DNA from: Candidatus Pseudothioglobus singularis PS1
Lineage (GTDB): Bacteria > Pseudomonadota > Gammaproteobacteria > PS1 > Pseudothioglobaceae
DNA: 64,000 nucleotides
Direction of reading: 5' to 3'
Assembly: GCF_001281385.1 (NCBI RefSeq)
Contig: NZ_CP006911.1
Span: 434,001-498,000 of the forward strand
Shown: in pieces, positions 56,325 to 64,000 of the stretch
Layout: each line of letters starts with the position of its first letter
How positions within the stretch are numbered: position 1 is the first letter of the stretch
The notes under the pieces: model-generated
The model's database searches: none
Seen by the model: only the letters and a program-made list of their open reading frames with translations
What the model was told of the DNA's origin: nothing
Translations under genes and position numbers: made by a program

Positions 56325-57419
56325 CTACTGACCAGTTTTTACTTTAGTCCATGTTCTAGTGACCACTCTTTGAATTTTGGGATCACTATAGCTTGGGCTA
56401 ATATAAGTATTCTGCATGACTTCTTCTGTAGGATAGACAGCTGGATCACTCAGCAAATCAGGCTCAAGTAATGGCTGAGATGCAAAGTTACCATTAGCAT
56501 ACCAAACATAGTTTGTTGCAGTCGCAATCTGCTCAGGGTCCATTATCCAGTTGATGTACTTATGAGCATTAGCAGTATTTGGGGCATCCTTAGGAATTGC
56601 TAACTGATCGAACCACATAAGAGCTCCTTCATCTGGAATTGCGTAGACAATCTCGACACCATTTTCAGCTTCTTCAGCTGCATATAATGCCTGAAATACA
56701 TCTCCAGACCAGCCAACTACGAGACAGATATCTCCATTTCCAAGAGCATCAATATATTGTGATGAATGGAATTTCTGGATGTATGGTCGAACTGCAGTCA
56801 GAACATCCTCAGCTTTCGCTATGACATCCTTATCAGTACTTCTTGGATCTTCACCAAGATAGGCTAGGGCTGCTGGAATTATTTCTTCAGGAGCATCTAG
56901 AAGATGAACACCACAGTCTGCGAATTTAGAAACAACATCCGGATCAAAAACCATCGCAAGAGAAGTCGTTGGCGCATTATCCATCCTTTCGTTTATCATT
57001 TCAACGTTGTAACCAATTCCAGTTGTTCCCCACATGTAGTTGACTGAGTAGTCATTCAGAGGGCCAAATTGTTCCACTTGCTCTTCAATCTTTCCCCACA
57101 TGTTGCTAATATTTGATAATTTTGATTTATCTAGTTTTTGAAAAACACCTGCTTGAATTTGACGTGCTAAGAAGCTGCTCGATGGAACGACTACATCATA
57201 CCCAGATCCTCCTGCTAGCAGTTTAGACTGCAAAAACTCGTTAGAATCGAATACGTCGTAGACAACTTTAATACCTGTTGCTGCAGTGAAGTCCTCGTTA
57301 ACTTGCTCGTCAATATAATCTGACCAGTTATAAACATTAACCACTTCTTCTGCAATCACCGCTTGAGCTGAAAACGTCAGTGCTCCAGCTATGAGCAGCT
57401 TATTTAACTTATTTTTCAT
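56325..57419 (-). CDS. potF: Putrescine-binding periplasmic protein PotF-like
   Basis: A periplasmic polyamine receptor of 364 residues. The signal peptide (about residues 1-23) ends VIAEE, followed by VVNVYNWSDYIDEQVNEDF, the typical PotD/PotF start. GGSGYDVVVPSSSFLARQ and VVGWSGDVFQALYAAEEA line the binding cleft in the family. AAAGGAG precedes ATG 57419. It is listed as PotF rather than PotD by operon partners; the specificity was not tested. Confidence 0.94.
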   Translation of the reverse strand: MKNKLNKLLIAGALTFSAQAVIAEEVVNVYNWSDYIDEQVNEDFTAATGIKVVYDVFDSNEFLQSKLLAGGSGYDVVVPSSSFLARQIQAGVFQKLDKSKLSNISNMWGKIEEQVEQFGPLNDYSVNYMWGTTGIGYNVEMINERMDNAPTTSLAMVFDPDVVSKFADCGVHLLDAPEEIIPAALAYLGEDPRSTDKDVIAKAEDVLTAVRPYIQKFHSSQYIDALGNGDICLVVGWSGDVFQALYAAEEAENGVEIVYAIPDEGALMWFDQLAIPKDAPNTANAHKYINWIMDPEQIATATNYVWYANGNFASQPLLEPDLLSDPAVYPTEEVMQNTYISPSYSDPKIQRVVTRTWTKVKTGQ

Positions 57420-58928: not shown

Positions 58929-58944
58929 ATTTGTGATCACAAAT
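58929..58944. promoter_or_regulatory. Palindromic operator between puuA and the GntR gene
   Basis: ATTTGTGATCACAAAT is a perfect 16-base palindrome in the divergent control region, 55 bases upstream of puuA and 34 bases upstream of the regulator gene. A near copy lies before spuC. GntR/FCD proteins bind such symmetric sites next to their own genes, so autoregulation is likely. Confidence 0.7.
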
Positions 58945-58977: not shown

Positions 58978-59583
58978 ATGGATATTTTATCGAAAGTTGA
59001 GCCAAGGGATTTAAAGCTAAATGCAAATGAATGGGTTTACAACTCTTTATGCCAGTTAATTCTTTCTGGAGAATTTGTTCCTGGTATTTCTTTTACTTTT
59101 AGAGGGATTGCTAATTCATTTGGAGTTAGTACTATGCCTGTGCGTGAGGCTGCTAATAGACTTATTTCAGAGGGTGCTCTTGATATGTCTGAAAAACGAA
59201 GAATTACTGTATCGCAAATGACTCAATCTAAGTTTGATGAGTTGAAAGTTGCTAGATTAAATTTAGAGCCACATTTAGCAGGTCTTGCTTTAAATCATAT
59301 AAATTCTAAAAGAGTTAACCTACTTATAAATATAGATAAAAATCTTGATTATGCTATCTCAACGGGAAATGTTGTAGACTACATTAAATACAATTACCAG
59401 TTTCATTTTGGTATTTATGAGGCTGGATCATCACCAGTATTGCTTCCTCTTGTAAGGACTTTATGGCTTCGTTTTTCACCTTTTTATAGAATTGTTGCAG
59501 GAAGAGCAGGGACTCAAACTATGAAAGATTTTCATAAATCAGCTATTGATGCTATTAAAGATAAAGATTCTGTTGCATTGTAG
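58978..59583 (+). pseudogene. GntR family regulator with FCD domain, ended early by an in-frame TAG
   Basis: A DNA-binding regulator whose winged helix (residues about 13-80) contains RGIANSFGVSTMPVREAANR, followed by an all-helical FCD ligand domain with FHFGIYEA and FHKSAIDAIKDKD. The TAG at 59581-59583 ends it at residue 201. The same frame continues with 20 more sense codons (PRMHSDILEGMEMLNESLNE) to TAA at 59644-59646. That continuation looks like the normal last FCD helix, including its conserved histidine. The gene may be inactivated, read through at the amber codon, or misread in sequencing. It likely controls puuA, pot and spuC. Confidence 0.72.
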
Positions 59584-59691
59584 CCACGTATGCATAGCGA
59601 CATATTAGAAGGAATGGAAATGCTGAATGAATCGCTAAATGAGTAAAAATGATTTAACTTAATTCTATTTGCACATAAGCGTGAAAATTTC

Positions 59692-59721: not shown

Positions 59722-59737
59722 ATCTGTGATCACAAAT
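59722..59737. promoter_or_regulatory. Second palindromic operator, before spuC
   Basis: ATCTGTGATCACAAAT matches the operator at 58929-58944 at 15 of 16 positions and keeps the core TGTGATCACA. It covers the predicted transcription start of spuC. Confidence 0.68.
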
Positions 59738-62462: not shown

Positions 62463-63434
62463 ATGAGTATTGATGATTTTGAAGATATGAAGACTGACCA
62501 AGCCTTCACTAGAAAAAGTCTTTATAGCAGGGCTAATGAAATGACCTATGGCGGCGCTCTAAGCTTTCTTAGGCGAAAATATACAAAAAATTTAGAGGGT
62601 GTCGATATAGCAGTCAGTGGCATCCCATATGACGCTGCAACTAGTTTCAGGCCAGGCGCTAGATTTGGTCCAAAGGCAATAAGAGAGGCATCAGTACAGC
62701 TTGCAGAATTGTTGGCTTTTCCAGATGGGATTGATCCATTTAAAACCCTAGCTGTTACAGACTATGGAGACTGTGAGTTGGATTATGGTTTTCATGGGAA
62801 CATTGTGTCTGAAATTGAAAATCATGCTGATACTATATTAGACTCTGGAGCCGAAATGCTGACTTTTGGCGGAGATCATTTTGTAACTTATCCTCTTTTA
62901 AGGGCTCACGCAAAAAAACATGGCCCTATCGCACTTGTGCATTTTGATGCGCATACAGATACATGGCCTGATGAAGATGGAAGACTTGACCATGGAACGA
63001 TGTTTTCAAGAGCCATTAAAGAGAACTTAATTGATACGGAGCATTCTATACAGATTGGAATTAGGACTCATAACAGTCATACCAAAGGCGTTAAAATTCT
63101 AGATGCACCATGGGTCCATGAGAATGGAATTAATCAAGTCATCAAAAAAATTATTGAGACAGTCAAAGATCGACCTGCTTACCTTACATTTGATATAGAT
63201 GGCCTTGATCCAGCCTATGCCCCTGGAACTGGAACACCAGTTGCTGGCGGACTAACCTCTGCGCAAGCCTTGGGAATTGTTAGAGGCTTGGGAGATTTGA
63301 AATTTATAGGTGCTGATGTCGTAGAAGTGGCACCTGCCTATGATCATGCCGATATAACTGCTATTATAGCTGCCACGATTGCTCATGACTATTTGGTACT
63401 AAGGGCAAAACAAAAAAGAAGCCAAGACAAATAA
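62463..63434 (+). CDS. speB: Agmatinase-family ureohydrolase
   Basis: A manganese ureohydrolase of 323 residues. Metal ligands are in FGGDHFVTYPLL, VHFDAHTDTWPD and LTFDIDGLDPAYAPGTGTPV; DAATSFRPGARFGPKAIREA matches agmatinases. It would release urea from agmatine to give putrescine, which spuC and puuA/puuB could consume. Guanidinobutyrase is an alternative in the same family. It lies 30 bases after puuB. Confidence 0.9.
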   Translation: MSIDDFEDMKTDQAFTRKSLYSRANEMTYGGALSFLRRKYTKNLEGVDIAVSGIPYDAATSFRPGARFGPKAIREASVQLAELLAFPDGIDPFKTLAVTDYGDCELDYGFHGNIVSEIENHADTILDSGAEMLTFGGDHFVTYPLLRAHAKKHGPIALVHFDAHTDTWPDEDGRLDHGTMFSRAIKENLIDTEHSIQIGIRTHNSHTKGVKILDAPWVHENGINQVIKKIIETVKDRPAYLTFDIDGLDPAYAPGTGTPVAGGLTSAQALGIVRGLGDLKFIGADVVEVAPAYDHADITAIIAATIAHDYLVLRAKQKRSQDK

Positions 63435-63452: not shown

Positions 63453-64000
63453 ATGAAAATAGGAATACTGTTAGTAGGAAGAGCGACTGATGATTTAGTT
63501 GAAAAATATGGAACATATGCTGAAATGCTTATTTCACTTATCAACTCTAAAGAGGAAGTATTTGAGTTTAAGACATTTAATATTCTAGATTCTGTGCTTC
63601 CTAAAAACCATTTAGAGTGCGACGGCTGGATTGTTACTGGCTCTCCACACGGTGTCTACGAAGAGCACTCATGGATACCAACTGTGAGTGAGCTTATTAA
63701 TGATATCTATCATGCGAGCTTACCCATTTTTGGGGTCTGTTTTGGGCATCAACTGATCGCCCCCGCTGGCTTGGCGGCCATGTTGAGAAATCCATTAAGG
63801 GCTGGGGTTTGGGTCTGCATACCTATGAAATTAATAATAAGACAGACTATATGGGTAATTTGCCAAAAGAGTTGACTCTGAACATCTGCCATCAAGATCA
63901 GGTTCTTCAGGTTCCTGAGGGTGCTAAGGTATATGCTAAATCTGATTTTTGTGAAAATGCTGGCTTTTATATTAAAGACAAAGTCTTAACAATGCAGGCT
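63453..64000 (+). pseudogene. Type 1 glutamine amidotransferase-like gene, frameshifted and cut by the window edge
   Basis: The N-terminal part reads as a class I glutamine amidotransferase: WIVTGSPHGVYEEHSWIP and the nucleophile C96 in PIFGVCFGHQLIA. Just after this, between about 63761 and 63772, the reading frame shifts by one base deleted or two inserted. The family sequence resumes as LGGHVEKSIKGWGLGLHTYE in the other frame, open to the window end. Read uninterrupted, the original frame stops at 63875 with an unrelated tail. By position it might hydrolyse gamma-glutamyl intermediates as PuuD does, though it looks more like GuaA/YfeJ-type proteins than like PuuD. Confidence 0.75.

Follow-up and report, generated by a model that had tools for sequence, protein, structure and literature searches.

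An in-frame stop codon in a GntR/FCD regulator gene of Candidatus Pseudothioglobus singularis PS1 lies in an eight-base block that is probably an artefact of the deposited assembly

Background

Regulators of the GntR/FCD type carry a GntR winged-helix DNA-binding domain and an FCD domain, and in the metal-binding subgroup of FCD proteins the ligand set is D, H, H, H. The protein analysed here, from Candidatus Pseudothioglobus singularis PS1, has the same two domains, and its best sequence match among solved structures is E. coli McbR (4p9f), but as deposited it is 21 residues short.

The PS1 genome is a single contig of 1,714,148 bases. PS1 has been described as the first mixotroph of its clade to be cultured, and its genome was assembled with SEAStAR from a SOLiD v3.0 mate-pair library, after which 177 gaps were closed by PCR and irregularities were later checked by PCR and coverage (PMC4616169). 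According to the SATRAP paper, one colour string in the SOLiD two-base code is common to four base strings, any misread colour throws the translation out of frame, and regions enclosed between unreliable colours are handled as a separate case (PMC4569514). In another report, a palindrome of 24-26 bp could not be sequenced across on the SOLiD 5500xl (PMC3521181). A literature search found nothing on SEAStAR together with SOLiD colorspace.

The regulator gene and its missing C-terminus

The features discussed here are collected in Table 1; "the window" is the whole stretch of DNA that was analysed, 64,000 nucleotides in length.

Table 1. Features at and around the regulator gene (positions in the window)
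Feature	Positions	Strand	Remarks
Candidate operator, exact TTGTGATCACAA palindrome, upstream of the regulator gene	58931..58942	.	Sequence match
GntR/FCD regulator ORF as deposited	58978..59583	+	201 aa, ended by TAG; Pfam GntR and FCD matches
Place where L033 and L034 have a perfect 14-bp palindrome	59575..59588	.	Absent from the deposited window sequence
In-frame TAG with which the odd block opens	59581..59583	+	Deposited sequence
Eight-base block, every base unlike both nearest relatives	59581..59588	+	Colour-shift pattern 3,3,3,1,1,3,3,3 (3 = unreversed complement)
Frame after the TAG, 20 codons and TAA (59644-59646)	59584..59646	+	C-terminus conserved in orthologues
Place where L034 has a perfect 12-bp palindrome, over the right edge of the block	59587..59598	.	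L034 sequence
Candidate operator, second copy, with one mismatch, ahead of the aminotransferase gene	59724..59735	.	Sequence match

The N-terminal GntR winged-helix DNA-binding domain of the regulator (PF00392, 45 bits, cut-off 27) and its FCD ligand-binding domain (PF07729, 52 bits against a cut-off of 24.3, over positions 4-113 of the 125 in the profile) are both found in the deposited protein; the nearest NCBIfam model is PRK11414, at 77.5 bits under its cut-off of 225. A preliminary description of this DNA had reported that the TAG is in frame and that the same frame continues to a TAA, which is what the deposited sequence contains, and had taken the continuation for the normal FCD C-terminus; the tail does align with the C-termini of 7/7 orthologues. 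When X is put in place of the TAG, the FCD match still stops at residue 202 (53 bits, profile positions 4-116), and the Pfam FCD profile itself does not reach the tail of the regulator. In the alignment the complete C-terminal helix is missing from the deposited PS1 protein and present in all seven orthologues. A structure model of the orthologue L034, of low confidence (mean pLDDT 46.9) and no more than a hint, places the last helix at residues 198-221, so on this model a real stop would cost almost the whole of it.

The regulator was sought in 83 family genomes, the window genome included, at a threshold of E 1e-30 or better. Matches were found in eight of them, and the stop occurs only in the window genome; a second search, of 58 relatives (PS1's own genome included), gave the identical eight strong matches. 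No stop lies inside the regulator in any of the seven other genomes with an orthologue, and the comparison with relatives that the preliminary description had proposed finds 0/7 orthologues ending at the truncation residue. No relative was found in the viral contigs searched.

The tail had also been credited with a histidine at a metal-ligand position. We aligned 24 FCD proteins, the seven orthologues and 17 others (six candidate loci were left out), and in this alignment the column of the C-terminal ligand histidine is residue 208, which is His in 17/17 of the other proteins (one of these, L032, being poorly aligned) and Asp in 6/7 or Asn in 1/7 of the orthologous group. The tail histidine is His206, two residues before that column. 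At ligand columns 139, 143, 186 and 208 the seven orthologues have N, H, H and D (N in one), a set that differs from the Asp and three His of the metal-binding FCD subgroup.

The eight-base block

At 59581-59588 PS1 has TAGCCACG in place of the ATCAATGC of both nearest relatives (locus L033, whose contig is as long as that of genome G018, and locus L034, whose contig is as long as that of genome G012). The flanks of the block are nearly unchanged: the 12 preceding bases are identical in both relatives, and the following bases are identical at 12/12 positions in G012 and 11/12 in G018. An origin of the TAG by point mutation is ruled out, since eight consecutive bases differ from the relatives. 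The stop and tail of the original observation stand; the change is one of eight adjacent bases and not of a single base, and the metal-ligand histidine falls away. It is extremely unlikely that stepwise substitutions at a fast-evolving site gave the eight differences and the stop: the two residues following Leu201 are indeed variable among the orthologues, but divergence is only about 9-13%, the 24 flanking bases show no more than one further difference, and the block is the sole mismatch run of at least 8 in the 155,555 columns compared with G012 (the control pair described below has four such runs, none with clean flanks).

At six of its eight positions the block carries the unreversed complement of the base found in the relatives. 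Among the three possible shifts, each compared with the relatives, shift 3 fits 6/8 bases, shift 1 fits 2/8 and shift 2 fits 0/8. When the block is decoded with shift 3 the stop is gone, residue 202 is Ile as in both nearest relatives, Ala204 is restored, and the remaining differences from the relatives are two A-to-G transitions; residue 204 is Ala in 7/7 aligned orthologues and Arg in the deposited PS1 frame. The chance of at least six complements among eight substitutions is 0.003-0.02, depending on the assumed share of the complement type. A colour shift is favoured over a random 8-base replacement by a likelihood ratio of 46, or of 114 at GC 0.36 (the GC of the window is 0.38), under a post hoc model that is rough and indicative only and that takes its divergence from a loose-gap scan and its transition share from a stiffer-gap scan.

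We think it likely that the TAG is an artefact, introduced with the PS1 assembly as deposited, rather than something that the organism carries. SOLiD reads encode the transition from one base to the next as a colour. In the mechanism that we propose, the misreading of one colour at either end of eight bases, with the inner colours unchanged, would turn all eight into their unreversed complement. In colour space a stretch cannot be told from its own unreversed complement, so that one bad colour per edge would yield such a block. In the shifted frame 59581-59588 would be sense codons, and the gene would encode an ordinary GntR/FCD regulator of the polyamine locus, about 222 residues long. The two wrong edge colours, a contribution of the palindromes at the site and the regulatory role are what we infer. 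Colour-space decoding is fairly likely to be the mechanism behind the artefact, and another assembly or gap-closing error is quite unlikely to be. Evidence against an artefact is that two of the eight bases misfit and would have to be real differences, that PS1 lacks a general excess of complement blocks, that mismatch runs of at least 8 bases are in themselves no rarity, and that the assembly had coverage checks and further PCRs (PMC4616169). Should the block prove to be a colour-space error, no biological meaning is to be given to the truncation as annotated, and the complement test can be used to screen clustered oddities in PS1 and in other SOLiD-only genomes.

The eight bases could instead have been swapped by a real PS1-specific event at the palindrome, for example by template switching at a hairpin, with removal of the last 21 residues of the protein; we regard this as unlikely. 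A single event would suit the sharp bounds of the block and its position at a palindrome of the relatives, and PS1 also has isolated runs of mismatches, 7 and 12 bases long, that are not colour shifts. However, we know of no mutational route to an unreversed complement, and the block destroys an Ala that all seven orthologues conserve. Nor was a near template for such a switch found, the sole other copy of the 8-mer in the window being 22.9 kb away and the 12-mer around the block having no second occurrence in the genome even with one mismatch allowed. A truncated regulator would probably be misfolded or unresponsive and the locus deregulated. The preliminary description had likewise expected a truncation to alter sensing and perhaps to leave the locus constitutive or uninducible, but that reading is weakened because the TAG belongs to an 8-base block whose pattern is that of a SOLiD colour-space decoding error, in a genome assembled from SOLiD reads.

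Read-through of a real amber codon had been put forward as a further option, and would give a short and a long protein; the tail is indeed in frame, and from residue 207 onward it has the relatives' sequence. It is very unlikely: the search for an amber suppressor proposed along with it was negative, with the anticodon CTA (CUA in the tRNA) in 0/38 of the tRNAs found and typed in the genome, none of the seven orthologues has a stop at the site, and the block also turns Ala204 into Arg.

Similar blocks elsewhere in the genome

We scanned for segments of constant shift in 155,555 aligned columns of PS1 and G012, 91,824 columns of PS1 and G018 (the two column sets partly overlap) and, as a control from which PS1 is absent, 127,199 columns of G012 and G018. 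A stiff gap penalty was used in these scans, since a loose one hides the focal block. The focal block is the only complement segment scoring at least 5, in PS1-G012 and in PS1-G018 alike, and the control has 0; weaker complement segments of 4 bases number two in each PS1 pair and 0 in the control. No second complement block as clear as the focal one occurs in the 155,555 and 91,824 PS1 columns. PS1 is thus without a general excess of complement blocks, and the colour-space artefact, if real, is rare in its assembly. Another pair without PS1, G012 and G002, has two complement-like segments scoring at least 5. A 9-base block at 63432 that differs from G002 (pattern 333311333) is not specific to PS1, G012 differing from G002 likewise.

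Isolated mismatch runs (at least 4 bases, with at most one other difference in each 12-base flank) number 15 in PS1-G012, three in PS1-G018 and two in the control, where the longest is of 5 bases; a possible excess over the control has p 0.006 for PS1-G012 (Fisher) and p 0.66 for PS1-G018. One isolated run, at position 12567 of L054 (PS1, outside the window), comprises 12 mismatches.

In a post hoc test that counts in the focal site and has slightly unequal scan widths for the two kinds of site, a palindrome arm of at least 7 accompanies 2/17 distinct sites of isolated mismatch runs and 13/1,699 random sites (p 0.009). By analogy with the reported SOLiD failure, the relatives' palindromes at the site of the block are a plausible cause of a misreading there. 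Elsewhere in PS1, at position 9860 of L126 (outside the window), an isolated run of four mismatches lies directly next to a place where the relative has a perfect 16-bp palindrome, and this may be a similar assembly problem.

The polyamine locus

On one side of the regulator gene, a divergent gene of the glutamine-synthetase family stands between it and PotF-like and dehydrogenase genes; on the other side are genes for an aminotransferase, an FAD oxidoreductase, an agmatinase and a glutamine amidotransferase. The aminotransferase, the agmatinase and a succinate-semialdehyde dehydrogenase score above their own NCBIfam cut-offs and the PotF-like binding protein below its own. By this gene content and these matches, the label of polyamine locus in the preliminary description is reasonable; a literature search for Pseudothioglobus with polyamine found nothing. 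The PotF-like binding-protein gene (56325-57419) departs from all of L033, L034 and L035 at several clustered positions, as if PS1 carried a divergent or recombined allele.

A pair of TTGTGATCACAA sequences, one exact and one with one mismatch, flanks the regulator gene in 6/7 orthologous loci, and the seventh has a single copy. The genome as a whole holds one exact and six one-mismatch places, which is not above the backward control (six per strand). We regard TTGTGATCACAA as a candidate operator of the regulator.

The glutamine amidotransferase gene (63453-63875) has a frame-breaking 2-base insertion near 63768 relative to L034 and L035, and its second half runs on in another frame to the end of the window. 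When ORFs of at least 120 residues from the relatives were compared with 144 kb of PS1 (84 from G002, 57 from G018 and 23 from G012 were found there), the regulator stop and this insertion were the PS1-only lesions that we judged clear. The other candidates listed lie, in our reading, at start sites, at protein ends or in overlapping frames. The two lesions are 4.2 kb apart, and could represent decay of the locus, which would speak for a real mutation in the regulator and against an artefact, or a badly assembled stretch. A real truncation that together with the amidotransferase frameshift amounts to a strain-specific loss of control over the polyamine locus seems doubtful to us; were the truncation real, such a regulatory loss would be of modest interest.

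Comparison with known systems

The palindromes of PMC3521181 are longer (about 24-26 bp) than those at the PS1 site and were tested on another SOLiD model. The translation errors treated in the SATRAP paper (PMC4569514) differ from the PS1 block in that two inner bases of the block are off the shift and in that the sampled part of PS1 holds no second clear case. The block nevertheless resembles such an error in being short and sharp-edged, in the offset of 6/8 of its bases from those of the relatives by one constant (the complement) and in coming from a SOLiD assembly.
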